Shown one piece after another: positions 22,748 through 55,800 of a stretch of DNA of 64,000 nt. The stretch comes from Sipunculus nudus (taxonomy: Eukaryota; Annelida; Sipuncula; Golfingiida; Sipunculidae). Within the stretch, counting starts at the first letter, position 1. Each line of letters opens with the position of its first letter. A program made the translations under genes and the position numbers. Location: assembly GCA_026874595.1 (NCBI GenBank), contig CM049318.1, positions 41,582,456-41,646,455 on the forward strand, in the 5' to 3' direction. The notes beneath the pieces are model-generated. The model worked only from the letters and a program-made list of their open reading frames with translations, was not told the origin of the DNA and did no database searches.

Positions 22748-22749
<2 letters not shown>
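19620..22749. other. Mostly unique AT-rich DNA, one poly-G run
   Basis: Poly-G at 21506-21519. The segment 19940-20100 is GC-richer and C-rich. No gene recognised. Confidence 0.35.

Positions 22750-22783
<34 letters not shown>
22750..22783. repeat. (TA)n tract, left border of the hammerhead element
   Basis: Pure TA up to the first base of the palindrome. Confidence 0.95.
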
Positions 22784-22787
<4 letters not shown>

Positions 22788-22813
22788 CTAAAGTACGGTT
22801 AGTTTGACTTCAT

Positions 22814-22881
22814 CAGTTTGTGCTACAGATCTGATTCGTGAGAGCAGCATTCAAGCCGGCTCACTCTTCAGGTACAAACTG
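22814..22881 (-). ncRNA. Hammerhead ribozyme, type I, probably impaired
   Basis: Mirror of the plus-strand ribozyme at 22886-22953. It keeps CUGAAGA, the GUGAG/CUCAC stem II and the stem I strands, but reads GAAU instead of GAAA after stem II. That replaces A15.1, breaking the conserved 15.1-16.1 pair next to the cleavage site, so reduced or absent cleavage is expected. Confidence 0.6.
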
Positions 22882-22885
22882 ACTC

Positions 22886-22953
22886 CAGTTTGTACCTGAA
22901 GAGTGAGCCGGCTTGAATGCTGCTCTCACGAAACAGATCTGTAGCACAAACTG
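22886..22953 (+). ncRNA. Hammerhead ribozyme, type I
   Basis: In order: stem I 5' strand CAGUUUGUAC (22886-22895), core CUGAAGA (22896-22902), stem II GUGAG (22903-22907) with CUCAC (22925-22929), core GAAA (22930-22933), and a very short stem III ACA-GAUC-UGU (22933-22942). Then come the cleavage nucleotide A (22943, GUA triplet) and stem I 3' strand GCACAAACUG (22944-22953). Stem I pairs except one A-C mismatch. All conserved positions (C3 U4 G5 A6 N7 G8 A9, G12 A13 A14, H17) are satisfied. Stem III is self-complementary, as in type I motifs thought to act as dimers. No activity data. Confidence 0.75.
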
Positions 22954-23052
22954 ATGAAGTCAAACTAACCGTACTTTAGTTATTTATAAACGCTCCCATA
23001 CGGTAGAGCACTATCACCGCGATGTATTGAATTCACGTTATGTGAACAATAC

Positions 23053-23058
<6 letters not shown>

Positions 23059-23112
<54 letters not shown>
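23059..23112. repeat. (TA)n tract, right border of the hammerhead element
   Basis: Pure TA directly after the AATACAAATTA tail. Confidence 0.96.
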
Positions 23113-34726: not shown

Positions 34727-34874
34727 AATTTGTATTGTTCACATAACGTGATTTCAATACATCGCGGTGATAATGCTCTGCCGTATGGGAGCGTTTATAA
34801 ATAACTAAAGTACGGTTAGTTTGACTTCATCAGTTTGTCCACAAACTGATGAAGTCAAACTAACCGTACTTTAG

Positions 34875-34878
<4 letters not shown>
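34727..34878 (-). mobile_element. Palindromic element, copy 2, ribozyme lost
   Basis: Inverted relative of 22784-23058: tail at 34727-34800, then a perfect palindrome with 38-bp arms (34801-34838, 34841-34878) around CC. The arms stop exactly at CAGTTTGT/ACAAACTG, the stem I strands of the ribozyme in copy 1; everything between them is missing. Flanked by (TA)n on both sides. Confidence 0.85.
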
Positions 34879-46029: not shown

Positions 46030-46880
46030 AATGTTAGTGGGGTCACAATAAGCCTAGAATTGCATATGTTTTGACCTTGAAGATCAAGGTTTAAGGTCAC
46101 AGGATTTCTATCACATCCAAGCTTTTGGTAGGAACAATGAGTGTTTCAAATTTTGGAGGAAAATATGCAGCCCTTCAAAAGTTATCTCGTCCACAAGACA
46201 ATTACTATAATTCCACTGATTTGACCTTGAAGATCCTGGTCAAGGTCACCAGGTTTCAAACTCGTCTGAGAGCTTGGTAGTAACAATTGTTGTACCAAAT
46301 TTGAGGACAAAATTGGAAATACTACAAAAGTTATGGAGTTCATAAAAATGTTACATTTCGGGAATTTTTACATTGAAAAGAAAGGTCAAGGTCACAAGGT
46401 TATGAACTTCTCCGAGAACATGGTAGGAACAATTGGTGTACCAAACTTGAGGACAAATTGTGGAATACTTAAAAAGTTATGGGGTTCACAAAAATGTCAT
46501 ATTTCTGCAGATTTGATCTTGAAGATGAAGGTCAAGGTCACTGTTTTTTTAACTTGTCCTTGACTTTAGTAGGAACAATTGCTGTACCAAATTTGAGGAC
46601 AAATGTTTAATACTTCAAAAGTTATGGGGTTAAAATATTTTACATTTTGGCAGATTTGACCTTGAAGATGATGGTCAAGGTCACCGATTTTCAAAATTTT
46701 CCAAGAACTTGGCAGGAACAATATGTATACCAAATTTGAGGAAATATTAATGTGGAATACTTCAAAAGTTATGGGGTTCACAAATTTCACATTTTGGCAG
46801 ATTTTACCTTGAAAATGAAGGCCAAGGTCACTGGTTTTCAAACTCCTCCGTATTAACAATTGAGTGTTTCAAATTTTGGC
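46030..46880 (+). repeat. Tandem repeat, ~146 bp x 6
   Basis: The GGTCAC marker ends at about 46100, 46249, 46395, 46541, 46684 and 46831 (spacing 149, 146, 146, 143, 147). Each unit carries TTTGACCTTGAAGATGAAGG, CAAGGTCAC, a TTGGTAGGAACAAT block, CCAAATTTGAGGA and CAAAAGTTATGGGGTTCA. Confidence 0.9.
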
Positions 46881-47170: not shown

Positions 47171-49250
47171 AAATGGAAAAAATACAGGTGGTGCCACCAG
47201 TCTGCAGGAACTGATGAAACATTCCATGATCAATATCCATGCAAAGAATCATGGTGATCAATGCAATAGTTGTTCAGTTACTTTAGCTTTTGTATCAAAT
47301 TTTGCATTATTCTGGGGGGTACTTCGGAGCCCCATAGCTCAGAAGTTATGGGTAACAGAGACCTTATTTCAAGTTTCCAAGGGGAATTTCCATGAGCCTC
47401 CCTGCATGTCAAGAGTGAAACCAAATTTCAGGTTTCAATGAAGACTTGTCATGGACCTCCCTGGTTGTCAAGTAAGAAGATTCTAGGTCAAACAGTGACA
47501 ACTTGTGCCTTGTTAACAGATGACTGCTTCATTTGAAGGTCTCAAAAATAAAAAAAAATGCATGAAAATTCGAAAAGATACAGATGGGGCCACTAGTCTA
47601 CAGGAACTGACGAAGCACTCCATCATCAGTAAGCATGCAAAGAATCATGGTGATCAATGCATTAGTTATTCAGATACTGGAGTGTTTGTATCAAATTTTA
47701 AATTATTCTTTGAGGTACTTTCGAGCCCAATAGCTTGGAGGATATAGGTAACAGAGACCTAAATTCAGGTTTCCAAGGATATTTTTCAATGACCTCACTA
47801 GATGTCTAGTATAAAGATTCTAGGTCCAGAGGTAATGATTCGTGCCTTGTTTACAGATGAGGCTTTATTTGAAGGTCTCAAAAATAGAGAAAAAAATGCG
47901 TGAAAATTCGAAAAAATACAGGTGGAGCCACCAGTCTGCAGGAACTGAAGAAACAGTCCATGATCAGTATGCATGCAAAAAATCATAGTGATCAATGCAT
48001 TTGTTATTCAGATACTGGAGCGTTTGTATCAAATTTTGAATTATTCTGAGGGGTATTTATGAGCCCCATAGCTCTGAGAATATGGGTAACAGAGACCTCA
48101 TTTCACATTTCCACATAGACTTTTCATGGACCTCCTTTGATGTCAAGTTATAAGATTTCAAGTCCAGCGGTTACGATTACTGAAAAATAGAGAAAAAAAT
48201 CGTAAAAATAAAAAAATACAGGTGGCGCCACCAGCCTGCAGAAACTGATGAAGCATTCCATGATCAATATCCATGCAAAAAATCATGGCGATCAAAGCAA
48301 TAGTTGTTCAGTTACTTGAGATTTAGTAGATTTTCAATTATTCTAGGGGGTACTTCGGAGCCCCATAGCTCAGAGGTTATAGGTAACAGAGACCTTATTT
48401 CAGGCTTCCACGGAGAATTTTCATGGGCCTCTCTGCGTGTCAAGAGAGAAGATTCTAGGTCCAGTCGTTACGATTTGTGCCCTGTTAACAGATGACCGCA
48501 TCTTAAGAGGTCTCAAAAATAGAGAAGAAAATCGTAAAAAATCGAAAAAATACAGGTGGCGCCACCAGCCTGCAGAAACTGATGACACATTCCATGATCA
48601 ATATCCATGCATAAAATCATGGTGAGCAATGCATTTGTTGTTTAGATACTTGAGCTTTTGTATCTAATTTTCCATTATTCTGGGGGGGGGGGGGGGGTAT
48701 TTCGGAGCCCCATGGCTAAAAGAATATGGGTAACAGAGACCTAATTTCAGGTTTCCAAGGAGATTTTTTATGGACCTCTAAGGATGCCAAGTTAGAAGAT
48801 TCCAGGTCCAGTCGTTACGATTTGTGCCCTGTTAACAGATGACCGCATCTTAAGAGGTCTCAAAAATAGAGAAGAAAAATCGTAAAAAATCGAAAAAATA
48901 CAAGTGGCGCCACCAGCCTGCAGAAACTGATGACACATTCCATGATCAATATCCATGCATAAAATCATGGTGAGCAATGCATTTGTTGTTTAGATACTTG
49001 AGCTTTTGTATCAAATTTTCCATTATTCTGGGGGGTAATTCGGAGCCCCATAGCTCAAAGAATATGGGTAACAGAGACCTAATTTCAGGTTTCCAGGGAG
49101 ATTTTTTATGGACCTCTAAGGATATTAAGTTAGAAGATTCCAGGTCCAGTGGTTACGATATGTGCCCTGTCAACGGACGGACGGCCGGCCGGACGGACGA
49201 CGGACAAAGAGTGATCGCTATAGCTCAGATGACTTTCAGTCAGCTGAACT
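47171..49250 (+). repeat. Tandem repeat, ~300-396-bp units x 6
   Basis: The GCCACCAG marker recurs at about 47193, 47589, 47927, 48227, 48561 and 48909. Each unit runs: GGTGGCGCCACC palindrome (variably intact), CTGCAGGAACTGATGAAGC, ATCATGGTGATCAATGCA, TTATTCTGGGGGGTACTTCG, AGCCCCATAGCTC, GGTAACAGAGACCT, TTTCAGGTTTCCAAGGAGAT, GATTCTAGGTCCAG, CCCTGTTAACAGATGACCG and AGGTCTCAAAAATAGAG. The last unit ends in a GGAC-rich patch and GACTTTCAGTCAGCTGA. A single diverged relative is at 60270-60795. The apparent proteins are repeat frames. Confidence 0.92.
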
Positions 49251-52500: not shown

Positions 52501-53564
52501 GAGCTTTACAGATTCAATCAATAATCCCGATATGGATTTTTTTAGGTGTAACATCATGCGAGAGCTCTGCATAAAAATATCCAAATCTCCAAAGGTTTAG
52601 CTTCTTAGGAAATGAATTAAAAAGCGTTCTTAATATATACATGCCAGTGATTCAATACCAATTATTTGTTATTATATTTGTTATTACAGTCACTGTCCTG
52701 GTAAAAACCACGCCAATAAAATAAGTAGTAAATTCATTAAAATGACCGCTCGTCATTGACATAATACATGGTCAACAAGGAAATCAATATGATATCAAAA
52801 TTATGTAATTTAAATATTGTTGGTCCTGTGAAAATGAATTTGCTTTTATTTGTATTCTGAGCAAGTTAAAAGACTTCTTTGTGGCCTATTCTACTGATTT
52901 GTTTTATATAAACTGTTTCAGTTCAAACGTTTATAAGAAGACGTTTCTATATATTTATATTGTTATTAACGGTGGCTGCACTCAAACCGTTGTCACGCAA
53001 CTCCTTTGTGGCCACGCTTCGGAAATGTCAATGTTCGTCTATGAAGTATCTGAAACGATACCAAGCGTGCCCTAAGGGGGTCATATTTCCTATTTCCAAT
53101 AAATCAAGATATTTTAAGAAGGAATTATCATGGCGCCATTCATCAGCCACTCTGAGCCGATGCACATGGCAATTTCAACTAGGACCTGCATCAACGCAAG
53201 AATGGGTTAGAAGATAATTTATATAAACAATAAGTAATACTTGATTTAAAGATACACCATCACAGAACTTACATTTATCATATCGTGTATGTCATCGAGA
53301 GTTCATGGGTACGGGGGACAGGTCTAAGTAACATCAAGGGATTTTATCAGTTTAATTCCTTACTGGAATCCCTGGCCATCATTCAGGTTTTAATAATAAA
53401 GAAGAAGACCACATTCATCGCTGCTTTTTCTTTGTTTTGTGAGACACCAAAAAAACTTTCCATCAGTCGAATAAACGAAAATATAAATATATTAAACAGA
53501 AAAAAACCTCTGACGTCTCATCGAAATATAAGAAATATAAAAATGATAATTAAATGATAATCAT
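52501..53564. other. Unique sequence
   Basis: Frames at 52881-53217 overlap in two registers and show no recognised domain. Confidence 0.35.
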
Positions 53565-54697
53565 TTTATCTAAGGTAGTTAATTGTCATGTTAATTAGGG
53601 TAGTTAAGTGTCATGTTATCTAAGGTAGTTAAGTGTCATGTTACCTAGGGTAGTTAAGTGTCATGTTATCTAAGGTAGTTAAGTGTCATGTTACCTAAGG
53701 TAGTTAAGTGGCATGTTATCTAGGGTAGTTAAGTCTCATGTTACCTAAGGTAGTTAAGTGGCATGTTATCTAAGGTAGTTAAGTGTCATGTTACCTAGGG
53801 TAGTTAAGTCTCATGTTATCTAAGGTAGTTAAGTGTCATGTTACCTAGGGTAGTTAAGTGTCATGTTATCTAAGTTTATTAAGTGTCGTGTTACGTAGGG
53901 TAGTTAACTGTCATGTTACCAAAGGTAGTTATGTGTCATGTTACCTAAGGTAGTTAAGTGTCACGTTACCTAGGGCAGTTAAGTGTCATGTTACCTAAGG
54001 TAGTTAAGTGTCATGTTATCTAAGGTAGTTAAGTGTCATGTTACGTAGGGTACTTAAGTGTCATGTTATCTAAGGTAGTTAAGTGTCATGTTACCTAAGG
54101 TAGTTAAGTGTCATGTTACCAAAGATAGTTAAGTGTCATGTTACCTAAGGTAGTTAAGTGTCATGTTACCTAGGACAGTTAAGCGTCATGTTACCTAAGG
54201 TAGTTAAGTGTCATGTTACCTGGGGCAGTTAAGCGTCATGTTACCTAAGGTAGTTAAGTGTCATGTTACCTAGGGTAGTTAAGTGTCATGTTACCAAAGG
54301 TAGTTAAGTGTCATGTTACCTCAGGTAGTTAAGTGTCATGTTACCTAGGGCAGTTAAGTGTCATGTTACCTAAGGTAGTTAAGTGTCATGTTATCTAAGG
54401 TAATTAAGTGTCGTGTTACGTAGGGTAGTAAACTGTCATGTTACCAAAGGTAGTTATGTGTCATGTTACCTAAGGTAGTTAAGTGTCACGTTATCTAGGG
54501 TATTTAAGTGTCATGTTATCTAAGGTAGTTAAGTGTCATGTTACCTAAGGTAGTTAAGTGTCATGTTACCAAAGGTTGTTAAGTGTCATGTTACCAAAGG
54601 TAGTAAAGTGTCATGTTACCTAAGGTAGTTAAGTGTCATGTTACCTAGGGCAGTTAAGTGTCATGTTACCTAAGGTAGTTAAGTGTCATGTTACCTC
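53565..54697 (+). repeat. 25-bp minisatellite, about 45 units
   Basis: Unit GTAGTTAAGTGTCATGTTAC plus CTAAG, with variants at the C/T of TTAYC and at TAAGG/TAGGG. A distinctive run of variants (GTGTCGTGTTACGTAGGG, ACTGTCATGTTACCAAAGG, GTTATGTGTC) occurs at 53881 and again at 54406, exactly 525 bp or 21 units later, indicating block duplication. Confidence 0.97.
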
Positions 54698-55330
54698 AGG
54701 CAACTTCCCAGTGTATAAACATCCCCACAGGCAACCTCTCGGAGTATAAACGTCACCACAGGTTACCATCCAGTGTTTAATTTGTCTAAAATGATTTATA
54801 ACGTCACCACAGGCAAACACCCAGTGTATAAACATCCCCACAGGCAACCTCCCAGTGTATAAACATCCCCACAGGCAACCTCCCGGTGTATAAACGTCAC
54901 CACAGGTTACCATCCAGTGTTTAATTTGTCTAAAATGATTAACAACGTCACCAAAGGCAACCACCCAGTGAATAAACGTCACCACAGGCAACTTCCCAGT
55001 GTATAAACATCCCCACAGGCAACCTCCCGGTGTATAAACGTCGCCACAGGTTACTATCCAGTGTTTAATTTGTCTAAAATGATTATTATAACGTCACCAC
55101 AGGCAACCTCCCAGTGTAAAAACGTCTCCACAGGTTACCATCCATTTTTTTTTTATTTTTCTAAAATGATTTATAACGTCACCACAGGCAACCACTCAGT
55201 GAATAAACGTCACCACAGGCAACCACTCAGTGTATAAACGTCACCACAGGCAACCTCCCGGTGTATAAACGTCACCACAGGCAACCTCCCGGTGTATAAA
55301 CGTCACCACAGGCAACCATCCAGTGTATTA
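54698..55330 (+). repeat. 31-bp minisatellite with 144-bp higher-order unit
   Basis: Basic unit CGGTGTATAAACGTCACCAC plus AGGCAACCTCC, spaced exactly 31 bp near the right end. A longer variant with TTTAATTTGTCTAAAATGAT recurs at 54777, 54921 and 55065, every 144 bp. It abuts the 25-bp array with no unique DNA between. A 101-codon minus frame is a by-product. Confidence 0.95.
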
Positions 55331-55800
55331 AATGTCTGGACAACGAATTACATACGTACAGGCCACGTGTGTTTGAGGCATTCTTTAACTCTCCGTGATT
55401 TCAGGCATTTTTCTCAAATTCCTTGGACTTATCAAAACTGGAACAAGAAAAATTCATTTTTAAGGTTTTCACTTACTCCCCATATGAATGGACACCCATT
55501 TTATGAACTTATATCACACATAATACCACGTTGACACGGTGTGCTGCTACATAAGACAGTCCATTCATATTGGCAATTAAGGCACGAGTAACAATTAAAT
55601 GTCGATAATGGGTGGCTCGGCCACATGAAAAACATGCAACTATCGTTCGTTAAATTGGCTTTATTCTGCCGCTGTTATTGTTCTGGAATTCTGGACAAAG
55701 ACTGTATATAAATCATTAAAGATTAATTGTGCGGTTAATTAAGTTAATTCGTTGTAACGGGTACGGTGATCTAGGGTGAAGTAAATCTGTTAATAATTCA
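55331..55800. other. Low-repeat segment, candidate regulatory element
   Basis: Complex sequence with TAATTAAG, AACAATTAAA and ATTGTT motifs (homeodomain/SOX-like cores). No coding frame recognised. Confidence 0.25.

Follow-up and report, generated by a model that had tools for sequence, protein, structure and literature searches.

A type I hammerhead ribozyme motif in a palindromic, probably dead insertion of a Penelope-like element in Sipunculus nudus

We analyzed a 64-kb stretch of Sipunculus nudus DNA (the window) and, by direct reading of its sequence, found all core positions of a type I hammerhead ribozyme on the plus strand at 22886-22953. The invariant core (C3, U4, G5, A6, G8, A9, G12, A13, A14, A15.1, U16.1, and H17) is complete, and the three helices with an open stem I correspond to the type I layout. 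Stem I pairs 22886-22895 (CAGUUUGUAC) with 22944-22953 (GCACAAACUG) at 9 of 10 positions, the exception being one A-C mismatch. The CUGAAGA segment at 22896-22902 leads into stem II (GUGAG at 22903-22907 with CUCAC at 22925-22929), which carries a 17-nt loop II and is followed by GAA at 22930-22932. The next 10 nt, at 22933-22942 on the plus strand (ACAGAUCUGU / ACAGATCTGT), can be drawn as a stem III of 3 bp closed by a GAUC loop or as a single self-complementary palindrome, and A17 lies at 22943. An earlier sequence-only reading had these core segments in this order (CUGAAGA, stem II, GAAA, short stem III, and GUA) and a 10-nt stem I with one A-C mismatch, and both descriptions were confirmed when we re-read the sequence. 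The cut position predicted from the core, 22943/22944, is likewise the one proposed there.

The motif lies inside an inverted repeat with arms of 103 nt (22779-22881 and 22886-22988; 98%) separated by 4 nt. We numbered the element by a 175-nt unit, taken as window positions 22882-23056. On the right, the direct arm (22882-22988, plus strand) spans unit 1-107, with the inverted-repeat partner starting at 22886; on the left, the inverted arm (22779-22881, minus strand) runs from unit 107 to unit 5. A 68-nt tail, unit 108-175, is present on the direct side only (22989-23056, plus strand). Repeat annotation places (TA)n target tracts on both sides, at 22749-22786 and 23057-23112; the outer end of the left arm merges into the first (site S107), and the tail ends at the second (site S175). 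A mirror copy of the hammerhead occupies the left arm (22814-22881, minus strand). It differs at a single position, 22834, where U replaces A15.1, and the minus-strand ribozyme of the palindrome has thereby lost this base. These arms bear out the palindromic element described earlier, and we count its proposed young age as supported. The tail and outer arms recur in a second copy of the element (copy B; 34729-34875, minus strand), whose arms end at unit 64/65 and do not include the ribozyme core. Tandem arrays occur elsewhere in the window at 53561-54700 (25-bp unit, 45.6 copies) and 54693-55336 (31/62-bp units), with further tandem repeats at 46218-46844 (~146 bp) and 47505-49174 (~300-350 bp).

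We searched the animal's own genome (1.43 Gb, 153 contigs) for related sequences. The whole element as query returned 90 matches (40 of 780 candidates scored), and the 52-nt ribozyme core, with up to 3 mismatches allowed, returned 208 matches against none for the reversed control. At locus L031, the 175-nt unit flanks both sides of a broken reading frame of a Penelope-like element (PLE), forming a direct repeat of ~360 nt (98%). Another locus, L052, has an open frame of 592 amino acids with an inverted terminal repeat (pLTR) on its 5' side. The L052 protein had 2,759 homologs at an E value of ≤1e-5 (8,000 candidates scored); of the homologs listed, 118 of 120 contained YxDDG and 98 of 120 a GIY-YIG-like pattern, which is also found in L051, a related PLE. 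We take these motifs, and the PLE label, to be those of Penelope-like elements, and the assignment of a PLE-type reverse transcriptase (RT) combines the motifs with the pLTR structure.

In profile searches, RVT_1 matches were weak and below the Pfam cut-off (L051 RT region, E 9.6e-4; P0083, E 9.3e-6), and at an E value of ≤1e-3 were obtained for 1 of 39 homologs. Whole PLE proteins had almost no Pfam matches, and those searched had none to Pfam GIY-YIG; the pattern makes the C-terminal endonuclease a candidate GIY-YIG domain. PDB sequence searches with PLE proteins gave no meaningful match, and the NCBIfam search no useful match. When the PLE protein alignment was used to scan viral contigs, none of the 23 pattern matches was a relative. 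The family combines a PLE reverse transcriptase frame, pLTRs that are direct or inverted with an optional tail, and an AT-rich target: 18 of 21 units have (TA)n after position 175, and two of the remaining three continue into the PLE frame. Sequence comparison places the window ribozyme in the terminal repeat of a PLE.

A descriptor scan of both strands, with at least 5 of 10 stem I positions paired, returned 22886-22953 as the sole site in the window. A control of first-order Markov sequence (60 Mb) yielded 14 sites with at least 5 paired positions, 5 with at least 6, and none with at least 7, so a chance origin is disfavored for the window motif with its 9 of 10. Rfam hammerhead models gave no match at the gathering cut-off or at an E value of ≤10, for the window, 451 nt, or 73 nt. 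A search of the own genome with RF00163 also returned no matches, but it returned none in 14 control genomes either and is uninformative. Covariance model R1 was trained on the hammerheads of L057, L051, and L071, which are other PLEs of this genome, and on none from the window's family. R1 gave the window hammerhead 43.9 bits (rough E 2e-11) and its mirror copy 37.0 bits; across the 64 kb it found no further site at an E value of ≤10. The match to a hammerhead covariance model that had been anticipated thus failed with Rfam and held clearly with the model of relatives. As a sequence motif, the predicted self-cutting RNA in the window is real. The Penelope-like pLTR context that the sequence-only reading had suggested also stands, given the unit flanking the L031 frame, the 208 core matches, the ribozymes of relatives, and the R1 score.

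To what extent the fold is shared can be seen at 20 loci 5' of PLE frames. A first scan detected hammerheads at 11 of them, namely L057 and ten members of the L051 group (L060-L064, L066, L067, and L069-L071), and none at the other 9. Among these nine, the covariance model found one in L058 and perhaps one in L054 (14.3 bits, E 0.08). The ribozyme is inverted with respect to the frame in L057, like the L052 pLTR, and has the same sense as the frame in L058 and the L051 group. Against Rfam Hammerhead_1, L057 scored 23.4 bits (E 4.5e-4), short of the 34-bit cut-off; L051 had no match to the Rfam hammerhead. In L058, stem III and its loop again form one 10-nt palindrome, and the hammerhead may be inactive, given a C at position 4. 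A five-sequence alignment, in which the L051 and L071 rows differ by one base, had 88.2% of cells paired and 10 of 17 pairs changed on both sides. Its covariation score was 0.588 against 0.288 for shuffled alignments; it was reached by 0 of 500 shuffles and exceeded six slid controls. The number of pair types was unremarkable, being reached by 251 of 500 shuffles. The aligned sequences indicate a hammerhead fold conserved across related PLEs, with compensatory changes in the stems.

Within the window's own family, 145 arms contained 17 substitutions in 1,207 core cells and 15 in 1,854 loop II cells. The core is thus not slower than loop II, and we saw no selection on the ribozyme core within the family, as expected if dead copies decay neutrally. 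At H17, 20 of 124 arms carry a different base: 19 have C, 1 has U, and none has G. Two stem I pairs have double changes, of which the pair in L031 still pairs and that in L108 no longer does. The arms with C at H17, giving a GUC triplet, include a subfamily (L096, L099, L105, L107-L114, and L116), of which L107-L114 also carry T for C close to the outer end of the arm. The rate in the core, like the missing Rfam match, is what one might see if the motif were a chance by-product of inverted repeats with no role. Against such an origin, which we consider extremely improbable, are the empty Markov control at 7 or more stem I pairs, the recurrence of the motif in other PLEs with compensatory changes, and the 43.9 bits from a model built without the window's family.

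We then compared where the copies end. Downstream, units end at ~107 or 175, usually at (TA)n; S175 is unit 175 (AAAUUAUAA) and S107 is unit ~99-107 (UUAUUUAUA), both UA-rich. The core matches listed include 13 head-to-head pairs of exact cores, 10 of which have one S107 and one S175 end; the others are two with S107 and a longer tail (L073 and L075) and one ending at ~97/107 (L080/L052). As a baseline we used 12 copies (L081-L092) with no second exact core within 3 kb among the matches listed, although several have an inverted arm anyway (e.g., L081, L082, L084, and L086). Nine of these end at ~107 (L081 without (TA)n) and three at 175. If ends were independent, at least 10 of 13 mixed pairs would have a P of 0.0045 with this baseline. 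The most lenient baseline (0.5) gives a P of 0.046, or 0.073 with L004/L005 counted once, and 0.0017 if the longer tails are scored as not S107. These end counts lend modest support to a rule of mixed S107/S175 pairing.

The inner junctions behave differently from the outer ends. Among 14 palindromes, obtained with the whole-element query, all inner junctions differ except within the pairs L001/L003 and L004/L005, and L004 and L005 may be one event. Judged from the sequences, outer ends recur and inner junctions vary. A non-autonomous family copying its palindrome as one unit, MITE-like or retrozyme-like, would fit the number of palindromic copies, three of which (including the window palindrome, A) are 99-100% identical over their full length, and would fit the junction common to L001 and L003. 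However, sharing of a junction is confined to those two pairs, and the left arms of L002, L004, L005, and L007 do not have the A15.1 change seen in A. Metazoan retrozymes, moreover, are described in the accessible text of PMC7229834 as small tandem repeats. The copies listed here are dispersed or are PLE ends, which goes against the retrozyme alternative raised in the sequence-only reading, and we regard copying of the palindrome as a unit as distinctly unlikely.

We propose instead that the window holds a PLE type I hammerhead in a dead 5'-inverted insertion made of two joined cDNAs, and we consider this the probable origin. The source element would have carried the ribozyme in its pLTR, adjoining an RT/endonuclease frame, and in the full PLE the ribozyme would presumably cut tandem transcripts into units. 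Two cDNAs would start on PLE RNA at the internal UA-rich sites S175 and S107, with one cDNA joined to each side of a cut (TA)n tract, presumably by (TA)n priming. Both would be copied to near unit 1 and then, we infer, joined head to head. The product would be a palindrome with a one-sided 68-nt tail and a ribozyme on each strand.

A single cDNA could also have folded back and primed its own second strand, with the short outer end set by TTATTTATA/(TA)n microhomology. Self-priming on an antisense template has been proposed for head-to-head PLE palindromes (accessible text of PMC3846280), and because unit ~99-107, where the outer end lies, is rich in TA, microhomology could position that end as well. 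However, self-priming requires paired bases at the 3' end of the primer, and we counted 0 at all eight junctions tested (A/L003, L017, L109, L096, L004, L015, L102, and L104), with BLAST-placed coordinates that may be a few nucleotides off. A self-primed strand might also be expected to reach unit 175, whereas the inverted arm ends at ~107. Self-priming is therefore rather unlikely, and the eight junctions favor two joined cDNAs. More tentatively, at somewhat less than even chances, each DNA strand would have one RT start site, with an S175 cDNA on one side, an S107 cDNA on the other, and variable joining, so that the genome would be a readable in vivo record of the process. If so, the window palindrome would be among the shortest two-site, two-strand products, its two cDNAs having ended close to unit 1.

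Similar events have been described for the Anolis PLE. In the accessible text of PMC11167929, RT starts at two adjacent internal sites, both strands are cut and extended, and the tail is the stretch between the two start sites. Its hammerhead was cleaved only with protein present, ribozyme mutants left insertion in vitro unchanged, uncut RNA was the usual template in vitro, and the authors report finding no RNA-seq reads that start or end at the cut site.

We looked for traces of cut RNA in 42 arm ends from 44 loci (L093-L136), located with unit 70-107. The sample is not random: L093-L096 are chosen head-to-head pairs, most others abut (TA)n or have no core match listed beside them, and the sampling favors arms that are shortened or altered inside the core. 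We excluded arms that extend beyond unit -20 and ends at positions above 70, as well as the complex locus L131 and copy B of the window; the L115 end is ambiguous by 7 nt through stem I homology. One end fell at unit 62-64 against 1.4 expected (two if L103 is taken by eye as 63/64), and six fell at unit 61-66 against 2.8 expected (P 0.056, uncorrected), which is no significant excess at the cut site. This is consistent with a template that is usually uncut RNA. We had considered copy B, with its arms to unit 64/65, as a footprint of hammerhead cleavage, a reading that the 42 arm ends do not support. The idea that the RNAs have a fixed 5' end at unit 1 was also rejected: 12 of 42 ends lie at unit -3 to 8 against 5.5 expected, with a P of 0.0066 uncorrected and 0.17 after scan correction. 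Six ends lie at unit 52-54 against 1.4 expected (P 0.0024, uncorrected), and the best 6-nt window is nonsignificant after scan correction.

Folding predictions suggest little activity from the window copy itself. The isolated 68-mer has a best fold of -20.1 kcal/mol, against -16.9 kcal/mol for the hammerhead fold. A plus-strand transcript of the full palindrome is predicted to form a near-perfect hairpin of -186.3 kcal/mol, and no cutting is expected from a whole-arm transcript so folded. The ribozyme is thus probably masked by the 103-bp hairpin and idle, window-copy transcripts presumably folding as one long hairpin, and self-cleavage by this copy is doubtful. The stem III palindrome at 22933-22942 could pair as a 3-bp hairpin or between ribozymes, as a 10-bp duplex with a computed energy of -13.6 kcal/mol, and would suit a dimer mode of cleavage. 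Newt and viroid hammerheads are described as cleaving in this mode, which has also been proposed for PLEs (PMC6155905, PMC7761336); PLE hammerheads are said to be without the loop I-loop II tertiary contact (PMC6155905).

The features found here have close counterparts in the published accounts accessible to us. As in Penelope/Poseidon PLEs (Anolis PAc and Adineta vaga Pen2a), the RT frame has a GIY-YIG-like end, pLTRs are direct or inverted, the inverted pLTR is shorter by a tail, and the target is AT-rich. The hammerhead in the pLTR resembles Anolis, and the palindromes at head-to-head junctions resemble Adineta, where the inverted pLTR falls 37 bp short of the direct one and the head-to-head joints, which are palindromic, are attributed to self-priming (PMC3846280). 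Differences from those PLEs are the tail of 68 nt rather than 30-40, the (TA)n microsatellite target, and a stem III that is 3 bp or palindromic. Minimal PLE hammerheads may cut as dimers (PMC7761336 and PMC6155905, on Cervera and de la Pena 2014; Luense 2017); the window motif is like them in being type I, with a short or missing stem III, in a pLTR, and possibly in tandem arrangement, and differs in its 17-nt loop II and in having stem III and its loop as one 10-nt palindrome. Metazoan retrozymes (PMC7229834) share the type I hammerhead and small element size, and mussel retrozyme hammerheads are also without most loop-loop nucleotides; unlike the PLE end described here, which is known from DNA, they are small units repeated in tandem and give rise to circRNA.

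Earlier work has thus already described PLEs with hammerheads in their pLTRs, with inverted pLTRs, with tails, and with palindromes. The titles and abstract openings in the literature covered, with few subscription papers among it, described neither the window's family nor a rule that each strand has one start site. Many young palindromic copies fix both outer ends and the joint, and the two-site, two-strand model, as well as the use of cut versus uncut RNA, could therefore be read from genome sequence.

Several other arrangements of these elements were observed. A related PLE (~53% amino acid identity) forms head-to-tail arrays with a period of ~2.92 kb at C17:42720488-42870484, where the matches listed include 51 rows, 39 with an open frame of 713 amino acids; the one unit read, L051, has a hammerhead, and shorter arrays lie on C12, C9, C11, C15, and C1. 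Three hammerheads that score as the L051 kind lie within 262 nt at L041:3764-4025, two on the minus strand and one on the plus strand, and the L051-type family may therefore also make inverted pairs. The only array among the listed core matches of the window's own family is on C12 (8537915-8557225), with four exact cores ~6,420 bases (6.4 kb) apart on the same strand. In L073, a tail is joined to an inverted tail, tail to tail, and L055 shows two inverted tail pieces.
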